DNA of 64,000 bases from a bacterium (GTDB lineage: Bacteria > Armatimonadota > Zipacnadia > Zipacnadales > Zipacnadaceae), in NCBI GenBank assembly GCA_030603495.1, contig JAUVXR010000015.1:1-64000 (forward strand), read 5' to 3'. How positions within the stretch are numbered: position 1 is the stretch's first letter; the number at the start of each line of letters is the position of its first letter. Shown here piece after piece: positions 47,729 to 56,469 of this stretch. Position numbers and translations under genes: made by a program. Below the pieces are notes generated by a model, which saw nothing but the letters and a program-made list of their open reading frames with translations, searched no databases and had not been told where the DNA came from.

Positions 47729-48202
47729 TCACTCGCCCGACATAGATTTGAGCGCGTTAACCTGCTCGATGGCCGTCAGCGCCGCCTCGAAGCCGCGGTT
47801 AGGCAGCTTGGTGCCGGCCCGCTCGATGGCCTGTTCGATGGTATCAGCGGTGAGCACACCAAAGATGACCGGCACTTCGGTCTGCATACCCGCCCGAGCG
47901 ATTCCCTTAGCACACTCGGCAGCTACGAAGTCGAAATGGGAGGTAGCGCCGCGGATAACTGCTCCCACCGCAATGACGGCATCGTACTGGCCGGATTGCG
48001 CCATCTTCAGGCAGGCCAGGGGCATCTCGAACGACCCGGGCACGTAGAGGATGGTGATGTCGCCGTCGGCCGCTCCGTGCCGGACCAGGCCGTCCAGGAC
48101 ACCCTCCAGCAACCGCTGGGTGATGAAGCTGTTATAACGACTGATGACCACTCCGAACTTCAGACCGGTCGCGTCCAGCTTACCCTCAATTATCTTAGCC
48201 AT
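47729..48202 (-). CDS. ribH: 6,7-dimethyl-8-ribityllumazine synthase
   Basis: A 157-residue lumazine synthase. [63 protein letters not shown] and [19 protein letters not shown] are the family blocks, with the catalytic His in TSHFDFV. It joins the pyrimidine product of RibD with dihydroxybutanone phosphate to make lumazine, the penultimate step of riboflavin synthesis. It is the last biosynthetic gene of the ribD-ribE-ribBA-ribH series on the minus strand. Confidence 0.95.
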
Positions 48203-48229
48203 AGTGGACTCTCCTTTGTCCGGGCCACA

Positions 48230-49450
48230 TCAGCAATCGTCTTCCCCAGAGCCGATGAGATGGCCCATCTTCTCCCTCTTGGTCTGGAGATATTTCTCGT
48301 TATACTCAGTTGGGTGGGATTCCAGCGGGACGCGCTCGACGACCTTCAGGCCGTAGCCCTCCATTGCGGCATACTTCTGCGGATTGTTCGTCATCAGTCG
48401 CATCTCGGTAATGCCCAGGTCGGCCAGTACCTGCGCTCCAATGCCATAGTCACGCATATCCGCGGGGAAGCCTAATGCCTCATTCGCCTCCACCGTGTCG
48501 TAGCCTTCCTCCTGGAGGTGGTAGGCCTTGATCTTGTTGGCCAGGCCGATGCCGCGGCCTTCGTGGCTGGCGACATAGACCACCACGCCGCAGCCTTCGT
48601 CTTCAATCTTCCCGAGCGCCGCCGCTAGCTGCCAGCCGCAGTCACAACGCAGCGAACCCAGTACGTCACCGGTCACACAGCCGGAATGAACCCGCACCAA
48701 CGGCGCCCGACTGCACTTTTTCAGATCGCCCTTTATTACCGCCAGGTAGTCGGTGCTGTCCAGTAATGAGGTATAGATGACAACGCGGAAATTGCCGTGC
48801 TCACTGGGCAGCTCGGCCTCCGCCTTCCTCTCAATAAGCTTTTCGGTCCGTCGGCGATATTCAATCAGATCAACAATCGTAACCAGCCCGATGCCGTGGA
48901 CTCGACTGAACTGGGCGAGTTGGGTCATATCTGCCGCCTGCCCCTGCTCGTCCAGGATCGTGCAGACAATGCCCGCCGGATAGAGGCCAGCGAGAATCGC
49001 CAGGTCTACTGCTGCCTCGGTATGCCCGGTGCGCCGGAGCACGCCGCCGTCAACCGCTCGCATCGGGGAGATGTGCCCCGGCCTGATCAGATCGCCAGGC
49101 TGGGTATCAGCATCGAGCAATGCCCGAATCGTCGTCGTCCGATCGGCAGCCGAATCACCCGTGCTCACGCCCCGTTTAGCATCAACTGACACCGTGAAGG
49201 CCGCGCGGCCGCTGTTGATGGACTCGGGGACCATCGGCGGCAGGTTGAGCTGCTCCAGGCGCTCGGCCGTCATCGCCACACCCATCAGTCCGCGGGCCTG
49301 CTGCATCATAAAGTTGACGTGCTCGGGCGTGGCGTGCTGCGCGGCCAGAACCAGGTCACCGGTGCCGTTGGCGTCGGCCTGGTCAACCACGACCACAAAC
49401 CGTCCGTCCCTTATCTGCTGTATCGCTTCTTCAATATCGGTCATCTTCAT
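48230..49450 (-). CDS. ribBA: RibBA: DHBP synthase-like domain fused to GTP cyclohydrolase II
   Basis: A 406-residue two-domain protein. The N-terminal RibB-like domain (about 1-200) has IRDGRFVVVVDQADANGTGDLVLAA and PMRAVDGGVLRRTGHTEAAVDLA (in parts). The acidic loop that is normally RENEGD reads ANGTGD, so the two Glu residues that bind magnesium and act in catalysis are missing. The GTP cyclohydrolase II domain (about 205-400) looks intact: the zinc Cys set C-x10-C-x-C in SGCVTGDVLGSLRCDCG, SHEGRGIGL and YGIGAQVLADLG. The RibB half may be inactive or use altered residues. It lies 13 bases after ribE. ATG 49450 and ATG 49444 are both possible starts. Confidence 0.88.
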   Translation of the reverse strand: MKMTDIEEAIQQIRDGRFVVVVDQADANGTGDLVLAAQHATPEHVNFMMQQARGLMGVAMTAERLEQLNLPPMVPESINSGRAAFTVSVDAKRGVSTGDSAADRTTTIRALLDADTQPGDLIRPGHISPMRAVDGGVLRRTGHTEAAVDLAILAGLYPAGIVCTILDEQGQAADMTQLAQFSRVHGIGLVTIVDLIEYRRRTEKLIERKAEAELPSEHGNFRVVIYTSLLDSTDYLAVIKGDLKKCSRAPLVRVHSGCVTGDVLGSLRCDCGWQLAAALGKIEDEGCGVVVYVASHEGRGIGLANKIKAYHLQEEGYDTVEANEALGFPADMRDYGIGAQVLADLGITEMRLMTNNPQKYAAMEGYGLKVVERVPLESHPTEYNEKYLQTKREKMGHLIGSGEDDC

Positions 49451-49463
49451 CACTGACGCAAGG

Positions 49464-50111
49464 CTAGCAGAAGCCGTGCTCGGTCAGGAACTCTTTCGTA
49501 ATTGTGCTTTCGGGAGCTTCGTCGGTCGCGTGCAGCATATTGTAGACGTATTTGGCGAGGATATCAACCTCAATATTGACCTGGGAGCCTGTCGAAAGCT
49601 GCGCCAGGTTGGTATGCTCAAGGGTATAAGGAATCATGGCTACCGAAAATGTTTCCTCGGTGACCTCGGTGACCGTCAAGCTGATTCCGTCAACCGCGAT
49701 ACTGCCCTTCTCCGCCACGAACGGGCGGATTTCAGTGGGCAGCGAGAAGGTGACATAGATTGTCTCCGCCGGGCCGGTACGGCTCACAAGGTGGCTGACG
49801 CAATCCACATGCCCCTGCACGAAGTGGCCGCCCAGGCGTTGGCCGGCGGCTAGCGCCTGCTCCAGGTTAACCCGCGTGCCCGTCCGCCATTGTGCCGCCG
49901 TGCTGCGCTGGACGGTCTCGGTACCAACATGGAACTCCAGGTCACTGCCGGCTATCTCCTCGACAGTCAGGCAGACCCCATTGATGGCCATGCTGTCGCC
50001 CGGTGCGCACCCCGGGCCGATCTCCGGCGCTGCAACGACGAGCCCCAGGCCGCTGCCGACCGCCGAGACGCGAACTACTCGCCCGACTTCTTCGATCAGT
50101 CCGGTGAACAT
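49464..50111 (-). CDS. ribE: Riboflavin synthase alpha subunit
   Basis: A 215-residue riboflavin synthase with two tandem lumazine-binding barrels. It begins MFTGLIEEVGRV; the first repeat has DSMAINGVCLTV and the second GSIAVDGISLTVTEV. GGHFVQGHVDC joins the two. It dismutates two lumazine molecules to riboflavin. It overlaps the 3' end of ribD by 16 bases, pointing to coupled translation. Confidence 0.95.
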   Translation of the reverse strand: MFTGLIEEVGRVVRVSAVGSGLGLVVAAPEIGPGCAPGDSMAINGVCLTVEEIAGSDLEFHVGTETVQRSTAAQWRTGTRVNLEQALAAGQRLGGHFVQGHVDCVSHLVSRTGPAETIYVTFSLPTEIRPFVAEKGSIAVDGISLTVTEVTEETFSVAMIPYTLEHTNLAQLSTGSQVNIEVDILAKYVYNMLHATDEAPESTITKEFLTEHGFC

Positions 50112-51226
50112 AGGTATGCCGTCACCAGTATATCCTCGCCCACTCGCTCGACTTGCTCAACGCAAACGCTACGGGCCACGCCAATCTCTTCGATATCGAG
50201 TCCGACCACGGCACTGAGCGCGTCCTGGTCGCCGATGATCTTGGGCGCATAGAAGAGCAGGAGCTTGTCTACCAGGTTCTGCTCCAGCAGCCCTCCTACC
50301 AACCGTGCCCCGCCCTCGACCAAGACTGACATTATATCGCGCGAGCCCAGCTCTGCCATCAATTCCGCCAGGTCAAGCTTGCCAGCCTTCTCGGGCAGCG
50401 CCAGAATCCCTGCCCCCGCCTTTTCCAGTTCCGCTACTCGTGCCTGCACATCATCCTTGAGTATCTCCCGCTCGGAGACAGCAATCATACAGGACGCCGC
50501 ACTAGATTCGGTTACAACCTTCGCCCCGGGCGGAGTGTCGGCGCAGGTATCTACCACCACCCGCAGCGCATCGCGGGCATCGAGTTTATCCAGGCGCGTA
50601 GTCAATGCTGGGTCATCCGCCAACACCGTACCACAGCCCACCATCACCGCGTCGCTGCGATCGCGCAGCGTGTGCACTAGCTGCCGCGCCTCTTCACCCG
50701 TTATCCACTTCGAATCGCCGGTGCGCGTGGCAATCTTGCCATCCAGCGTGCAGGCCAGTTTGACCGTCACGAAAGGCCGGCCGGTCGGCTTGTGCTTGAA
50801 GTACGCCTCATTAAGCTGGCGAGCTTCCTGCTCGAGCGGACCACAAAGAGTCTCGATGCCGCCGGCATGGAGCACCTCGTCTGCGCGACCGGCGTTAGCC
50901 GAATCGCAATCACGACAGGCATAGATAACGCGGCTTATTCCGGCAGCAATTATTGCCTGGGTACACGGCGGCGTGCGCCCGACAGTCGAGCAGGGCTCGA
51001 GGCTCACATAGAGCGCCGCGCCTGCGGCCTGCTTGCCGGCATCGTGTAGCGCTACGACCTCAGCGTGGGGCTGCCCCGCCGCCCGGTGAAAGCCCTCGCC
51101 GACAATCTCATCACCGGCAACAACGATCGCACCCACTGCCGGATTGGGCGAGGTCCGGCCCAGCCCCCGAGCCGCCAATTCCAGGGCTCGGCGCATATAT
51201 TTCAGGTCACGGCGTTCGGTGGTCAC
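50096..51226 (-). CDS. ribD: Bifunctional pyrimidine deaminase/reductase
   Basis: A 376-residue fusion. The N-terminal deaminase (about 1-145) has the zinc motif HAEVVALHDAGKQAAGAALYVSLEPCSTVGRTPPC (read as HAE followed by PC and PPC). The C-terminal reductase (about 150-370) has TVKLACTLDGKIATRTGDSKWITGEEAR (in parts) and LVEGGARLVGGLLEQNLVDKL. It carries out steps two and three of riboflavin synthesis. It overlaps the upstream membrane-protein gene by 4 bases. No FMN riboswitch is visible upstream of the operon. Confidence 0.94.
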   Translation of the reverse strand: MTTERRDLKYMRRALELAARGLGRTSPNPAVGAIVVAGDEIVGEGFHRAAGQPHAEVVALHDAGKQAAGAALYVSLEPCSTVGRTPPCTQAIIAAGISRVIYACRDCDSANAGRADEVLHAGGIETLCGPLEQEARQLNEAYFKHKPTGRPFVTVKLACTLDGKIATRTGDSKWITGEEARQLVHTLRDRSDAVMVGCGTVLADDPALTTRLDKLDARDALRVVVDTCADTPPGAKVVTESSAASCMIAVSEREILKDDVQARVAELEKAGAGILALPEKAGKLDLAELMAELGSRDIMSVLVEGGARLVGGLLEQNLVDKLLLFYAPKIIGDQDALSAVVGLDIEEIGVARSVCVEQVERVGEDILVTAYLCSPD

Positions 51227-51645
51227 GACCGGCTCTCGGGCCCCGGCTCGGCCTCTTCTCCGGACTGTGCTGCTTCGGTAAGCTTGGCAACCTCCCGACG
51301 CAGCTCTGCCATCCGCTGGTACAGCTCAGCCCGGGCAAGGTGGTGCGTGGCCCGCACCTGGCGCAGATCCACCACCGCCAGAATCATCACCACCACAGCC
51401 AGTAGCACCAGCACGAGCCCGAATACCACCACCGCGAATGGCTCGGGGTTTTTCTGGAAATAGACCATCCCCCCCAAGCTCAGTCCGACTATAGCCAGCA
51501 GCAGCACCGCCATAATCAAGCGCAGAACTAACTGCCGCCCGGAGATGATGCTTTGCCCACGGAAGTACTTGCTCAGCTCCACGAGTACCGCAATAACGAT
51601 GCCGAGCGCCGCTATGGCCAGTAAGACAACCACTGTCGGATTCAT
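51223..51645 (-). CDS. Small membrane protein of unknown function, first gene of the riboflavin operon
   Basis: A 140-residue protein with three predicted membrane helices: TVVVLLAIAALGIVIAVLV, LIMAVLLLAIVGLSLGGMVY, and AVVVFGLVLVLLAVVVMILAVV. A charged coiled-coil-like C-terminal tail follows (ARAELYQRMAELRREVAKL). GGAGG six bases before ATG 51645 decides the start. Its 4-base overlap with ribD suggests translation coupling, but I recognise no family and do not infer a role in flavin metabolism. A riboflavin carrier would need more helices. Confidence 0.65.
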   Translation of the reverse strand: MNPTVVVLLAIAALGIVIAVLVELSKYFRGQSIISGRQLVLRLIMAVLLLAIVGLSLGGMVYFQKNPEPFAVVVFGLVLVLLAVVVMILAVVDLRQVRATHHLARAELYQRMAELRREVAKLTEAAQSGEEAEPGPESRS

Positions 51646-51714: not shown

Positions 51715-51743
51715 TTGACAGTCTATTGCCAATGTACTATACT
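51715..51743 (+). promoter_or_regulatory. btuF: Consensus promoter of the cobalamin-uptake operon
   Basis: A perfect TTGACA at 51715-51720, a 17-base spacer, and TATACT at 51738-51743. Transcription would begin near 51750, about 15 bases before the riboswitch P1 stem. Confidence 0.75.
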
Positions 51744-51763
51744 CAACCCAAATTGAATAAGAC

Positions 51764-51936
51764 AGCTTGCGTTTGACGGTCCAGTTGGGCCGCTAGCAGG
51801 AAGACGGTGTGAAGCCGTCACTGCCCCGCAACTGTAACCGGGGACGAAGCCCGCAGGTAGCCACCGGGACTGACACAGTCTTGGGAAGGCGCGGGAAGTA
51901 GGACGATCCGGGAGTCAGGATACTGCTGCGCAAGCT
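51764..51936 (+). ncRNA. Cobalamin (AdoCbl-type) riboswitch aptamer
   Basis: The conserved core is clear: GCTAGCAGGAAGACGGTGTGA, then CACTGCCCCGCAACTGTAACC (given here in parts), and the B12 box as GGAGTCAGGATACTGC near 51911-51926. An 8-bp P1 stem closes it: AGCTTGCG (51764-51771) pairs with CGCAAGCT (51929-51936). A promoter lies directly upstream and a terminator directly downstream, so bound cobalamin should stop transcription of the following uptake genes. The downstream btuF, btuD and btuC genes agree with this. Confidence 0.93.
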
Positions 51937-51990
51937 AATGTCAGTTTCATCTCCTCGTGGGAGGGGGGTGACTGTTTTTGATTTCCTAAG

Positions 51991-52021
51991 CCACCGCCGC
52001 TTTCCGGAGCGGTGGTTTTTT
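51991..52021 (+). terminator. Intrinsic terminator, riboswitch expression platform
   Basis: CCACCGC (51991-51997) pairs with GCGGTGG (52009-52015), followed by six T residues at 52016-52021. A second hairpin (GGCTGGC and GCCAGCC, about 52030-52053) follows. Placed 55 bases after the aptamer and 82 before the first gene, it is the likely off-switch. I could not pin down the antiterminator pairing. Confidence 0.75.
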
Positions 52022-52103
52022 GTTGCCGCATCCGGCTGGCGGTGCAGCCAGCCGCAACAACTGAATACGCACCCCACACCTAAACAATAATGGAGGACTC
52101 ATA

Positions 52104-52841
52104 ATGCCCCGACACACCCACAACCAGCGTGGTTTCACCTTGATCGAACTGCTCGTGGTCATCGCGATCATCGCGATTCTGGCCGCGATTATGTTTCCCG
52201 TCTTCGCCCGAGCTAAAGCCAAGGCTCTTCAGACCACATGCCTGTCAAACGTCAGGCAGCTAGCGCTGGCCTTCCAGATGTATGCCAGTGACCACGACGA
52301 GACTATGCCCCTGGCCTGCTACTACACCGGCGACTGGGGAGGAGAATACGAGGAGCATGCCTGGGACTTTCACTGCTATTGGGAGTGGGATGGTTCAGCG
52401 TCCAAGCTCATCTCTTACGAACTGGGCCTGATCGGGCCGCACACTAGGAACGAACAGATCAGCATCTGCCCGATCTTTGACGCCCCCAGCGGCCAGCGGC
52501 CTGCCAGCGGCTATGCCTATAACACCAGCTACCTCGGCGGGCTACCGCCTGCGCTTACCACGAAGATCAGGCAGCCGTCCCGCACGGTACTGCTGTGCGA
52601 CAGCGCCATCTGGATAAGCGGCAGCGGAACCAGCCAGAATAACTTCCTACGTTCGCCGGGCGATCCCTTCCGAGTCACGTGGAAAACCGGTCCCAACGTC
52701 CATTTCCGCCATAATGGGACGGCCAATGTAGCGTATTGCGATGGCCACGCCAAAGCAGCTACCCAGAAGTTCAATGTCAGCCCTAATGACGACTCGCTGG
52801 CTGACCTGTCGGAAGGCGAGAGCGCCTACAACCTGGAGTGA
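52104..52841 (+). CDS. Prepilin-like protein with H-X9-DG motif, under the cobalamin riboswitch
   Basis: A 245-residue type II secretion/type IV pilin-like protein. The prepilin peptidase site and helix are in RGFTLIELLVVIAIIAILAA, with cleavage after Gly10 and the conserved Glu at +5. A globular domain with several Cys and Trp residues follows, and near the end HNGTANVAYCDG gives the H-X9-DG signature of pseudopilin-like proteins that are expanded in Planctomycetes, Lentisphaerae and Armatimonadota. Its role is unknown. It is the first gene after the cobalamin riboswitch, and btuF starts 7 bases after its stop, so it belongs to the B12 operon. This suggests a surface or periplasmic part in corrinoid capture (inference). 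Confidence 0.87.
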   Translation: MPRHTHNQRGFTLIELLVVIAIIAILAAIMFPVFARAKAKALQTTCLSNVRQLALAFQMYASDHDETMPLACYYTGDWGGEYEEHAWDFHCYWEWDGSASKLISYELGLIGPHTRNEQISICPIFDAPSGQRPASGYAYNTSYLGGLPPALTTKIRQPSRTVLLCDSAIWISGSGTSQNNFLRSPGDPFRVTWKTGPNVHFRHNGTANVAYCDGHAKAATQKFNVSPNDDSLADLSEGESAYNLE

Positions 52842-52848
52842 CCGCCGT

Positions 52849-53934
52849 ATGGGGACGCCGAACCAGAGACCAATTCCGAATCTGACGGTATCAGGCAGGC
52901 CACTGGCGCTGGCAATCGCCACGCTGGTGCTGGCGATCCTCAGTGGCTGCCGAGGTGGCCAGCAAGCCGGCCCGTCACCTTCGGGTCCCAAGATGGACCC
53001 GGTGGCAAGCGACTGGCCGCGAACGTTCACCGATGACCTGGGCAATACGATCACCTTCGAGGAGCCGCCGCAGCGCATCATCAGCCTGTCGCCGAATCTG
53101 ACAGAGATCATCTTCCTGGTTGGAGCCGAGGAGCAGCTTGTAGGGCGCACCGATTTCTGCGACTACCCACCGCAGGCACTGGCGAAGCCCAGCATCGGTG
53201 GGATCGTCAACCCCAGCCTGGAGAAGCTGGTTAGCCTCGAGCCAGACTTGGTGTTGATAGCACGAGGCGTTGACGCCGCGTTCCTGGACCGGCTACGCAA
53301 AATGGAGATATGCTTCTTGGGATACGATCCGCAGACCCTGGATGACGTCATTGCCCTGATACAGCGCCTTGGCCAACTCACCGGGCACGATCAGCAAGGG
53401 GCCGAAGCATCGGATAAGCTGGCGCAGCGCAAAGCACAGGTCGAGGCAGACAGCCGCCCGCGGGCCGACATTCAGTTGCGGGTGCTCTTTGTCCTATCGC
53501 GCGAGCCACTGTTCGTCGCGGGCACTACCAGTTTCGTTGACAATATCCTCCGCACTTGCGGCGCCCGCAACGCCATCGCCGGCGTGCCCCACGTTGACCA
53601 GCGCCGCCCCTGGCCGCAGATCTCCCGAGAGACTGTCGTCGCCGCCGACCCGCAGTTGATTGTCTTTGCTGACACGCACGGCGCAGACAGCAGTAGTACC
53701 TCCGCCGACACTCTCACGCAGCTGCGAGCGACGCCGGGGTGGCGAGGGGTAGCCGCAGTCCTCACGGGCCAAGTTTATACTATCAGCGACGACTTGATTA
53801 CCATCCCCGGCCCCCGGCTGATCGAGGGGCTTGAACAGATTAGCCAACTTGTCCACGAGGCTGCGGGGCAATATACGGTTCAACCGGAAGAACGGCAAAG
53901 TAGAGTAGGGAACGTCTCTGAGTCCAAGAGGTAG
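52849..53934 (+). CDS. btuF: Cobalamin ABC transporter substrate-binding lipoprotein
   Basis: A 361-residue type III periplasmic binding protein. The signal peptide ends at a lipobox, LAILSGC (Cys about residue 33). The domain begins TFTDDLGNTITFEEPPQRIISL and continues SPNLTEIIFLVGAEEQLVG, VNPSLEKLVSLEPDLVL and PRLIEGLEQISQLVHEAA, the order seen in BtuF. It hands cobalamin to BtuCD. ATG 52849 is chosen over longer in-frame starts inside the prepilin gene because it gives the correct lipoprotein leader. It is under the riboswitch. Confidence 0.9.
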   Translation: MGTPNQRPIPNLTVSGRPLALAIATLVLAILSGCRGGQQAGPSPSGPKMDPVASDWPRTFTDDLGNTITFEEPPQRIISLSPNLTEIIFLVGAEEQLVGRTDFCDYPPQALAKPSIGGIVNPSLEKLVSLEPDLVLIARGVDAAFLDRLRKMEICFLGYDPQTLDDVIALIQRLGQLTGHDQQGAEASDKLAQRKAQVEADSRPRADIQLRVLFVLSREPLFVAGTTSFVDNILRTCGARNAIAGVPHVDQRRPWPQISRETVVAADPQLIVFADTHGADSSSTSADTLTQLRATPGWRGVAAVLTGQVYTISDDLITIPGPRLIEGLEQISQLVHEAAGQYTVQPEERQSRVGNVSESKR

Positions 53935-53945
53935 AGTCCACTGCT

Positions 53946-54632
53946 ATGAGCAAGGTCATCGCATCCTGGAGTGGCGGCAAAGACAGTTGCTTCGCCTGCT
54001 ATGCGGCGATTTCTCAGGGCCACAATGTGACCCACCTTGTGAATTTCATCTCGCAAGAGTACCACAGAGTACGCTTTCACGGCACGGAAGCCAAGCTGAT
54101 TCAACTCCAATCCCAGGCAACGGGCATACCCCTCCTCCAGAATCCGACTCCCGACGACGGATATGAGCAGGCGTTTAAGAAAGCCGTGCGAAGCCTACTT
54201 GGTGACGGCGCAGAGGCTATGATCTTTGGCGACATATTCCTGGAAGAGCACAAGGAGTGGACGGAAAGAGTTTGCCGGGAGCTGGGGATTCGCGCAATCG
54301 AACCCCTTTGGGGAAGGGCCCCTGAAGATGTTCTCAGCGAGTTTCTAGACGCGGGCTTTGAGGCGACAATAGTCAGCGCCAAGTCCGACCTGTTCGATGA
54401 AGAGTGGGTGGGTCGGACACTCGGCGGAGAATTCTTGAGATACCTCAAGGAAAACGATATCGAGCCCTGCGGCGAAAACGGCGAATACCATACCTTCGTG
54501 ACCGATGGACCTCTGTTTGAACAGAGGATAGAGATTTCTGAATCCCGAAAGGTTCTGCGGGAAGGTTACTGGCTGTTGGATACTCGCCAGTACCAGCTAG
54601 TCGGAAAAGATGCTCTTTCTGGGAAATCGTGA
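53946..54632 (+). CDS. Dph6-like PP-loop ATP pyrophosphatase
   Basis: A 228-residue ATP-dependent ligase-like protein of the diphthine-ammonia ligase group. The PP-loop is ASWSGGKDSCFACYAA; GAEAMIFGDIFLEEHKEWTERVCRELGI (in parts) and PCGENGEYHTFVTDGPLF are the family blocks. Bacteria lack diphthamide, so the eukaryotic role does not apply. Its place between btuF and btuD, 11 bases after btuF and overlapping btuD by 4, points to a job linked to corrinoid uptake or side-chain amidation, which is inference. GC looks lower than in its neighbours. Confidence 0.85.
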   Translation: MSKVIASWSGGKDSCFACYAAISQGHNVTHLVNFISQEYHRVRFHGTEAKLIQLQSQATGIPLLQNPTPDDGYEQAFKKAVRSLLGDGAEAMIFGDIFLEEHKEWTERVCRELGIRAIEPLWGRAPEDVLSEFLDAGFEATIVSAKSDLFDEEWVGRTLGGEFLRYLKENDIEPCGENGEYHTFVTDGPLFEQRIEISESRKVLREGYWLLDTRQYQLVGKDALSGKS

Positions 54633-55447
54633 TGGTGGGCGAGAAACAACTATTGACAGCCGAAGGGGTAGTCTGTGGTTATGACGGCCGTGAGGTGCTG
54701 CACAGTGTAACCATGGGCGCGGCTCGTGGAGAGTTCGTGGGGTTAATCGGCCCGAACGGCTCGGGGAAGAGCACCTTGCTGCGGGCGCTGACCGGCATAC
54801 TGCCCTTGAGCGCAGGCCTGGTGCTGCTGGAGGGGCGAGCACTGGACAGCTATTCCCGCCGGCAGATCGCCCAGAAGATCGCTGTCGTTCCGCAAGTCAC
54901 GGGCCACATCTTCTCGTTCAGCGTCGAAGACTACGTGCTGATGGGGCGCACGCCTCACCTGGGCCGCCTCCAGGGGCACCACGCCAGTGATCTGCACGTT
55001 GCCTGGGAGGCAATGGCGCTGGCCGATATCACCGACCTCGCCAGCCGTCCCGTCACCGAGCTGTCCGGCGGGGAGCTGCAACGGGCTACTATCGCGCGCG
55101 CTTTTGCCCAACAAACCGACATCCTGCTCTTAGATGAGCCTACGGCATTCCTAGACATCAATCACCAGCATGACATCTTCGAGCTACTCGCCCGCTTCAA
55201 CCGCGAGCAGGGCAAGACCATCGTCTGCGTCTCCCATGATTTGAACCTCGCCGCGCAGTACTGCCAGCGGCTAGTGGTCCTTTCCGAGGGCTGTGTGCAC
55301 ACTGAAGGCCCCCCGGAAGCAGTAGTGACCGAGCAGATGATCGAGCGAGTCTACCATGCCGAGGTGGCAGTGGACATCGGGCCGGGCGGTGCCCCACGCG
55401 TCAGCCTGATGCCCGGCGGGTCATCGCCGCGGGGTGAGCAGCGATGA
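54629..55447 (+). CDS. btuD: Cobalamin ABC transporter ATP-binding protein
   Basis: A 272-residue ABC ATPase of the iron-siderophore/cobalamin class. Walker A GPNGSGKSTLLRALTG, Q-loop VVPQVTGHIFSFSVEDYVLMGRTPHLG (in parts), signature LSGGELQRATIARAF, Walker B ILLLDEPTAFLD and the switch His in CVSHDLNLAAQYC. It powers BtuC. GTG 54629 overlaps the preceding stop; ATG 54632 is an equal alternative. It overlaps btuC by 4 bases. Confidence 0.93.
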   Translation: MMVGEKQLLTAEGVVCGYDGREVLHSVTMGAARGEFVGLIGPNGSGKSTLLRALTGILPLSAGLVLLEGRALDSYSRRQIAQKIAVVPQVTGHIFSFSVEDYVLMGRTPHLGRLQGHHASDLHVAWEAMALADITDLASRPVTELSGGELQRATIARAFAQQTDILLLDEPTAFLDINHQHDIFELLARFNREQGKTIVCVSHDLNLAAQYCQRLVVLSEGCVHTEGPPEAVVTEQMIERVYHAEVAVDIGPGGAPRVSLMPGGSSPRGEQR

Positions 55448-56469
55448 GCCGACGGCATATCGCGGTAGCCGTGGGACTGCTAGTGCTGCTGATTGCCACG
55501 GTGGCTATCTCGCTGGCGACCGGCCCCTCTGCCTTGTCCCCCGCGAAGGCAGGGCGCATATTGGTCGGCGCTGTCCCCGGTCTGGGCAGCCTGGCGCCGC
55601 CAGCCAGTGCCACCGAACGCGCCATTGTGCTCGACATTCGCTTGCCGCGTTTGATCCTGGCCCTGCTGGTGGGCGCGTCACTGGCCGTGGCCGGAACAGT
55701 GATGCAGAGCTTCTTTCAGAACCCAATGGCGGCACCGTCAATCCTAGGCGTCTCCGCCGGCGCAATGCTGGGCGCGACCGCTGCCATTATGCTGGGATTC
55801 GATATCGGGTTCTGGGGCCTCAGCGCCGTGCCCGCAGCCGCCTTCGTCGGCGCGCTGGCTGTCTCTGCGGCGGTATACCTGCTCTCGCGGCGGGGCGGAA
55901 GGACACCAGTTACGCTACTACTGCTCACCGGCATCGCGCTGGGCGCGCTGGCCTCGGCCATCTCCTCGTTCATTCTCATCCGCGGCCAGCAAGGCGACCT
56001 GGATATGGTCATCATCTGGATGATGGGGAGCGTCGCCAATCGCGGCTGGCCCGAGGTGCAGATGATTCTGCCCTATGTGCTCGCGGGCTCAGCCATCGTC
56101 TACCTCTACTCGCGCGACCTCAACGTCCTGCTGATGGGCGACGAACAGGCCTACTATCTGGGCGTGCCGGTGGAGCGCGTCAAGCTGATCCTGCTCATCC
56201 TGGCGTCGCTGCTAGCCGCGGCTGCAGTGGCGGTCACCGGAGCTATCGGCTTCATCGGCCTGATTGTACCGCATCTGATGCGCCTGCTGATCGGGCCCAA
56301 CCATCGCATACTCCTACCCGCGTGCTTCCTCGCCGGTGGGGTAGTGCTGGGCCTCTCAGACATCGTAGCTAACCTGGCGGGAGAGATCCCGATCGGCATC
56401 GTCACGTCGCTGTTGGGCGCGCCGTTCTTCCTCTACCTGCTCCACCGCACCCGCGACTACGAGTTCTAA
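55444..56469 (+). CDS. btuC: Cobalamin ABC transporter permease
   Basis: A 341-residue FecCD/BtuC-type permease with about ten membrane helices. DIRLPRLILALLVGASLAVAGTVMQSFFQNPMAAPSILGVSAGAMLGA is the classic entry region (in parts: RLPRLILALLVGASLAV, NPMAAPSILGVSAGA). GAIGFIGLIVPHLMRLLIGPNHR is the coupling-helix block and EIPIGIVTSLLGAPFFLYLL the C-terminal end. It moves cobalamin across the cytoplasmic membrane. It is the last gene of the riboswitch operon. Confidence 0.93.
   Translation: MSRRHIAVAVGLLVLLIATVAISLATGPSALSPAKAGRILVGAVPGLGSLAPPASATERAIVLDIRLPRLILALLVGASLAVAGTVMQSFFQNPMAAPSILGVSAGAMLGATAAIMLGFDIGFWGLSAVPAAAFVGALAVSAAVYLLSRRGGRTPVTLLLLTGIALGALASAISSFILIRGQQGDLDMVIIWMMGSVANRGWPEVQMILPYVLAGSAIVYLYSRDLNVLLMGDEQAYYLGVPVERVKLILLILASLLAAAAVAVTGAIGFIGLIVPHLMRLLIGPNHRILLPACFLAGGVVLGLSDIVANLAGEIPIGIVTSLLGAPFFLYLLHRTRDYEF

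Follow-up and report, generated by a model that had tools for sequence, protein, structure and literature searches.

What is a pilin gene doing at the head of an operon for the uptake of vitamin B12? The question is raised by positions 51,715–56,469 of a 64,000-nucleotide stretch of DNA (hereafter the window; contig JAUVXR010000015.1 of assembly GCA_030603495.1) from an Armatimonadota bacterium of the class Candidatus Zipacnadia, where a cobalamin riboswitch is followed by a gene for an H-X9-DG/DUF1559 pilin-like protein and then by btuF-, DUF71-, btuD-, and btuC-like genes (Table 1). B12 is too large for ordinary porins, and an earlier note on this DNA had proposed that the pilin-like protein is a B12-regulated component for corrinoid capture or for crossing of the outer layer. 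On the comparative evidence given below, the pilin is probably (at roughly 0.6) a B12-repressed pseudopilin that takes the place of BtuB at the outer membrane in the acquisition of corrinoids, a role in which it would bind the vitamin and take part in its transport. Such riboswitch-linked pilins would be a direct and testable answer to the question of how diderm bacteria without TonB take up B12 and, if the reading is true, would provide the first substrate for a branch of the H-X9-DG/DUF1559 pilins, whose families are very large.

Riboswitch-Linked Pilins in Armatimonadota

The first genome set consisted of the window's genome and 60 Armatimonadota-related genomes. RF00174, the cobalamin riboswitch, was found in 56 of the 61, and the DNA 3′ of about 85 riboswitches was inspected, most of the weakest being excluded. 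The order riboswitch-pilin-btuF(-DUF71)-btuD-btuC is kept in other members of the genus (G004, G005, and G006, as well as G001 up to btuD with a crude caller of open reading frames (ORFs), and G003 up to the contig end). Riboswitch-pilin-btuF is also found in other genera of the same family (G008, G009, G011, and G012) and, beyond the family, in further families and classes and elsewhere in the phylum (G015, G025, G043, G044, G054, and G058). Elsewhere, the pilin is often the sole gene behind the switch, and unrelated genes such as groES-groEL, ftsK, or that for melibiase come next. That a common pilin gene came to lie here by chance or as a hitch-hiker was rejected: the pair has turned up in dozens of genomes, some of which have no gene but the pilin behind the switch, and only about 15 pilin-like N-termini were counted in the window's genome. 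The recurrence also removes the case in which, according to the earlier note, the proposal would fail, namely a pair confined to this genome.

A subfamily profile built from the domain behind the N-terminal helix gave two-humped scores over the 61 genomes: 38 matches are at 204–301 bits vs. 118 bits or less for generic pilins, and between the humps are 14 matches at 130–169 bits plus a split gene of which one fragment scores 123 bits. Thirty-seven of the 38 top pilins sit 212–549 nucleotides (nt) 3′ of RF00174 on the same strand, while the remaining one (G055:C212, locus L204) is preceded by a 22.6-bit aptamer, below the Rfam cut-off. Half of the top pilins (19/38) were outside the seed alignment, and 18 of these are riboswitch-linked, the 19th being L204. 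The intermediate pilins are linked in 10 cases of 14, in one of which (G047:C2) the pilin is the second gene at 1.3 kb.

Two other features of these riboswitches may be mentioned. Locus L141 has tandem cobalamin riboswitches (1512–1713 and 1795–1982) upstream of the pilin. At L110:842–2992, the gene directly 3′ of a cobalamin riboswitch encodes the B12-independent class III anaerobic ribonucleotide reductase NrdD, and NrdD-like ORFs are found behind cobalamin riboswitches also in G019, G021, G024, G031, and G038.

A Distinct Subfamily in at Least Four Phyla

In an IQ-TREE phylogeny of 71 rows, whose bootstrap is not fully settled and in which some generic rows are long, the linked pilins are split from the 21 generic ones with a support of 99/97. 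The linkage label changes three times on this tree vs. 20.7 times in shuffles, and four unlinked rows are nested among distant linked pilins. Thus, as far as protein sequences can tell, the riboswitch-linked pilins form a distinct subfamily, and the two-humped scores together with the tree led us to reject an ordinary housekeeping pilin. Contig L149, which is titled “Vermiphilus sp.”, nests among the pilins of the Omnitrophota/Ratteibacteria clade, and an error in binning or naming probably accounts for the title.

Furthermore, 84,980 named species genomes were scanned with the protein only, blind to riboswitches, as a check against a circular seeding of the profile. The scan yielded 79 loci, of which many Armatimonadota ones come from genomes of the 61 set while those of other phyla are new. 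Where the upstream DNA was long enough, every subfamily locus (34/34) is directly behind a cobalamin riboswitch, and these include Omnitrophota, Ratteibacteria, and a TA06-named bin. Among weaker Planctomycetota and Lentisphaerota pilins (27–30% identity), nine are directly behind the riboswitch (L167, L174, L178, L179, L188, and L191–L194), that of L179 being the adenosylcobalamin type RF01482, and three others are within 2.7 kb of one (L168, L176, and L200). No riboswitch was found at 26 other loci of the same scan, nearly all of them generic Armatimonadota pilins and two of them with little upstream DNA. Corrinoid partners in the linked operons are btuFCD, DUF71-B12, CobU, CobT, CobQ (cobyric acid synthase), and homocysteine S-methyltransferase. 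The check for conservation across genera that the earlier note had called for therefore extends to families, classes, and phyla, and the linkage of predicted riboswitch and pilin spans at least four bacterial phyla.

Some planctomycete operons carry additional genes. In Phycisphaerae, the regions L168:2211–4532 and L200:2848–5184, between the cobalamin riboswitch and the pilin, encode surface-type proteins: L168 has a DUF4465 protein whose end is PEP-CTERM-like, L200 has a PEP-CTERM protein, and both loci share a protein of 391–392 amino acids (aa) without Pfam match. A comparison of the DUF4465 protein with solved structures, made to see if it resembles BtuH, matched other DUF4465 chains, and BtuH (7BIZ) was not among the matches listed. 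A DUF6580 membrane protein, possibly a further transport component, is encoded at L192:7897–8571 in a riboswitch-pilin-DUF71-btuF operon.

Pilins and TonB-Dependent Receptors

The absence of a nearby BtuB/TonB-type receptor, assumed in the earlier note, is borne out for the whole genome: the plug domain PF07715, used as a proxy for TonB-dependent receptors, gave no match in the window's genome, while the Escherichia coli control was positive. With a pilin counted as present at 200 bits or more, the plug domain occurs in 4/37 genomes with the pilin vs. 14/24 without it (p 1.2e-4, 61 genomes), in 4/33 vs. 13/17 when genomes at least 85% complete are taken (p 1e-5), and in 4/22 vs. 13/17 when counted by genus (p 3.9e-4). 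In 10 genomes, a plug receptor is preceded by a cobalamin riboswitch, and only one of these (G042) has a linked pilin, too (p 5.6e-4, or p 0.005 when counted by genus). Both states, pilin and receptor, are found inside families f1 and f5, so the exchange occurred more than once. Riboswitch-linked receptors are common in the 59 Planctomycetota genomes, nine of which have the pilin; the plug domain is lacking in seven of these nine vs. 7 of the 50 others (p 2.8e-4), and seven of the nine pilins are riboswitch-linked within 2.7 kb. Of the genomes behind the named pilin loci, 18/22 have no plug match.

Some Armatimonadota apparently possess a B12-dedicated TonB system. In G007 (L066) and G010 (L067), both of the window's family, and in G038 (L082), riboswitch operons cover a set of ExbB, ExbD, TonB, and receptor, checked with Pfam in G010 and recognized partly by similarity in the other two.

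The anticorrelation also bears on the possibility that the pilin, under B12 shortage, helps the cell to adhere to particles or to cells that produce B12, or to aggregate with them, and never handles the molecule itself. Type IV pilins are commonly adhesive, and expression repressed by B12 would be expected for such a function, too. Adhesion, however, leaves both the inverse relation to TonB plug receptors and the presence of btuF in the same operon unexplained, and we regard it as improbable.

Several points weigh against a corrinoid-acquiring pilin that stands in for BtuB. All of the above are Fisher tests in which shared ancestry is handled only by the genus count and absence is called from draft metagenome-assembled genomes, and the Armatimonadota test weakens to p 0.006 when the intermediate-scoring pilins are counted in. 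Pilin and plug receptor occur together in G022, G042, and G053 (and in G048, G052, and G058 with weaker scores on one side), and several Armatimonadota genomes have neither. A few subfamily-like pilins (G055:C139, G044:C241, G044:C532, and G057:C2) have no riboswitch. As regards the protein, the H-X9-DG motif is common to all such pilins, and the subfamily-specific residues described below are candidates only. Finally, the proposal leaves the hand-over of B12 from a pilus to BtuF unexplained. Given the co-occurring and doubly absent cases, the replacement of BtuB-type receptors by the linked pilin is, on this genomic evidence, a tendency and not a rule.

Features of the Pilin Protein

The window protein belongs to the prepilin families by its N_methyl (PF07963, 42.1 bits; cut-off 21.2), DUF1559 (PF07596, 27.9; cut-off 23.3), and H-X9-DG (TIGR04294, 24.1; cut-off 19) domains, and stays below the cut-offs of the named NCBIfam equivalogs (GspG 37.3/88.85, GspH 31.6/80, and PilA 43.7/400). 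Its H-X9-DG motif is H203-X9-D213-G214. The residues that linked pilins keep almost without exception and generic ones seldom have include G108, G136, A168, P185, P197, H200, F201, and A207, H200-F201 being located just before the motif. The same holds for an acidic C-terminal tail, which ends in Y/F-D and reads LADLS-x-x-[DE]-S-x-Y-[DN]-L in the subfamily including the window protein.

An AlphaFold2 model (confidence score, pLDDT, 94.3) has a single N-terminal helix and a globular head. The long helix is packed on a beta-sheet head, that is, the predicted fold is that of a type IV pilin; the best alignment is with Thermus PilA4 (6xxd, Z 6.1 over 124 residues), other pilins being next. Foldseek with the model gave nothing under E 0.001, and by sequence the head domain had chance matches only among solved structures, the protein aligning to pilins in the Protein Data Bank (PDB) through the N-terminal helix alone. 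PADLOC gave no match, and a defence-system protein was rejected on that ground.

A single helix with a globular head, encoded 7 nt from a lipoprotein BtuF gene, could be imagined to stay out of filaments altogether and to assist BtuF in the periplasm, tethered to the membrane. Yet many genomes have the pilin behind the switch without btuF, and the pilin N-terminus is kept complete, the assembly glutamate E15 included; such a helper therefore seems rather implausible.

Proposed Function

In the window's genome, one Omp85 protein was found, as well as nine matches to secretins and seven to the T2SSE family, indicating a diderm that could assemble and extrude pseudopili. Secretins are present in 61/61 genomes and therefore do not discriminate. 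This machinery would also serve a pilin that is B12-regulated and needed indirectly, as a pseudopilus subunit helping a type II system to export some other protein that binds or releases B12. The ubiquity of secretins, the several T2SSE ATPases of the window's genome, and the Phycisphaerae loci, with PEP-CTERM and DUF4465 surface-type proteins encoded between switch and pilin, fit such a role. Most loci, however, have no co-regulated secreted candidate, and frequently the switch is followed by no gene but that of the pilin, so that an indirect role is unlikely.

For a pseudopilin that itself acts in corrinoid acquisition, the following course may be envisaged. The linked pilin genes would be silent when cobalamin is plentiful and switched on at scarcity, as the switch and its terminator suggest. 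Cleavage of the prepilin would take place ahead of F11, the type II/IV machinery of the cell would build the product into a pseudopilus or pilus, and the conserved head would capture corrinoid at the cell surface or aid its passage through the outer membrane, after which BtuF-BtuCD would carry it across the inner membrane; in hosts without a TonB receptor, the pilin would thus serve the outer-membrane step. Capture or passage is suggested by the linkage and by the tendency to replace the TonB-dependent receptor BtuB. The earlier proposal is supported by the cross-phylum linkage, by the frequent position of the pilin as sole gene behind the switch, and by the plug anticorrelation, while what we infer from sequence is the regulation in living cells, the assembly into a filament, and the binding and transport of B12. 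A bolder version is possible, and we hold it more tentatively, as somewhat less likely than not: a dedicated pilus or pseudopilus made only at B12 scarcity might capture external corrinoids, draw them through a secretin, and do the job of BtuB without TonB in several phyla, which would be a new class of outer-membrane vitamin uptake.

Comparison with Known Systems

The E. coli-type system of riboswitch-btuB, TonB-ExbBD, and BtuFCD is similar in the riboswitch control of the outer-membrane step and in the BtuF, BtuC, and BtuD transporter, but the place of btuB is held here by the pilin gene. The BtuG and BtuH proteins of Bacteroides resemble the window pilin, in its proposed role, as accessory proteins of the cell surface that a riboswitch controls and whose genes lie with those for B12 transport (PMC6143338, PMC8941943, PMC10404256). 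However, they are lipoproteins working with BtuB, whereas the window protein is a prepilin found mostly where BtuB is missing; it has a prepilin signal and pilin domains only, and no sequence relation to BtuG/BtuH was found. The proposed function would therefore resemble that of BtuB or of the BtuG/BtuH capture proteins, to none of which the pilin belongs. Generic H-X9-DG/DUF1559 pilins of Armatimonadota and Planctomycetota (TIGR04294, PF07596) share the family, N-terminus, and motif with it but have neither cobalamin riboswitch nor H200-F201 and the C-terminal tail.

Pilus-like fibres have been proposed for the passage of large substrates through the outer membrane: in planctomycetes, pili-like fibres bind dextran, a precedent for fibre-aided uptake (PMC5394234). 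Competence pseudopili and these fibres differ from the present case in substrate, riboswitch control, and gene neighbourhood, and that paper names no pilin. A link, in this sense, between a cobalamin riboswitch and a (pre)pilin, pseudopilin, or DUF1559 protein was not found among 5.39 million open-access papers; subscription papers and preprints were outside the search, and priority is unsettled.

Organization of the Window Locus

Table 1. Elements of the riboswitch-pilin-btuFCD locus in the window.
Feature	Position	Strand	Remarks
Sigma-70-like promoter, TTGACA-17-TATACT	51715–51743	+	11/12 consensus positions
Cobalamin riboswitch aptamer, RF00174	51756–51943	+	96 bits (covariance-model cut-off 31.5 bits), E 1.2e-22, full length 1–189
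Intrinsic terminator, probable expression platform	51993–52016	+	10-pair stem, then T-run
Ribosome-binding site, GGAGG	52092–52096	+	7 nt 5′ of the pilin ATG; read from sequence
H-X9-DG/DUF1559 pilin-like gene	52104–52841	+	245 aa; Pfam and NCBIfam domains
btuF-like gene, periplasmic corrinoid-binding lipoprotein	52849–53934	+	361 aa; LSGC lipobox; PF01497
DUF71/COG2102 gene, B12 subgroup	53946–54632	+	228 aa; PF01902; ENGEYH motif
btuD-like gene, ATP-binding cassette (ABC) ATPase	54629–55447	+	best NCBIfam model: corrinoid ABC transporter ATPase
btuC-like gene, FecCD permease	55444–56469	+	best models: BtuC

The aptamer and terminator reported ahead of the pilin gene are both present, and the aptamer is the sole Rfam match in the window and the single RF00174 match in the 2.67-Mb genome. 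The terminator hairpin is recovered in an RNA fold as well, though not strongly (z −1.1). The promoter, described as perfect in the earlier note, exists and falls short of perfection by one position. No sigma-70-like promoter was found by a consensus scan of the + strand between terminator and pilin; transcription of the pilin from its own promoter, which would have spoken against the proposal, was rejected as far as such a scan can tell.

Domain searches agree with the gene order given before, and the genes are indeed close-packed, with successive gaps of 7, 11, −4, and −4 nt, the first being the seven bases between the pilin stop and the btuF ATG. The btuF product contains a Peripla_BP_2 domain and has BtuF/vitamin B12-binding protein as its top PDB relatives, which places it in BtuF, although it misses the stricter NCBIfam BtuF equivalog cut-off (114.6 vs. 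234). The third gene had been called Dph6-like; its position and family hold, and the label is corrected by its motif, since ENGE(F/Y)H in place of EGGE/DxE is the signature of the DUF71-B12 subgroup, which has a predicted role in B12 salvage and is found with btuFCD (PMC3541065, where pilin and riboswitch are unmentioned). All genes 3′ of the pilin are therefore corrinoid genes, and the part that gene content demonstrates is a predicted riboswitch-btuFCD uptake operon with a putative new outer component.

Upstream of the operon on the − strand, positions 47729–51226 contain riboflavin-gene-like ORFs (ribH, ribBA, ribE, and ribD by eye); no flavin mononucleotide riboswitch was matched by Rfam in the window. 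Divergent from the riboswitch operon, a small protein that is predicted to lie in the membrane and is matched by neither Pfam nor NCBIfam is encoded at 51223–51645 (− strand), and genomes of the same genus have ORFs of similar size at this position.

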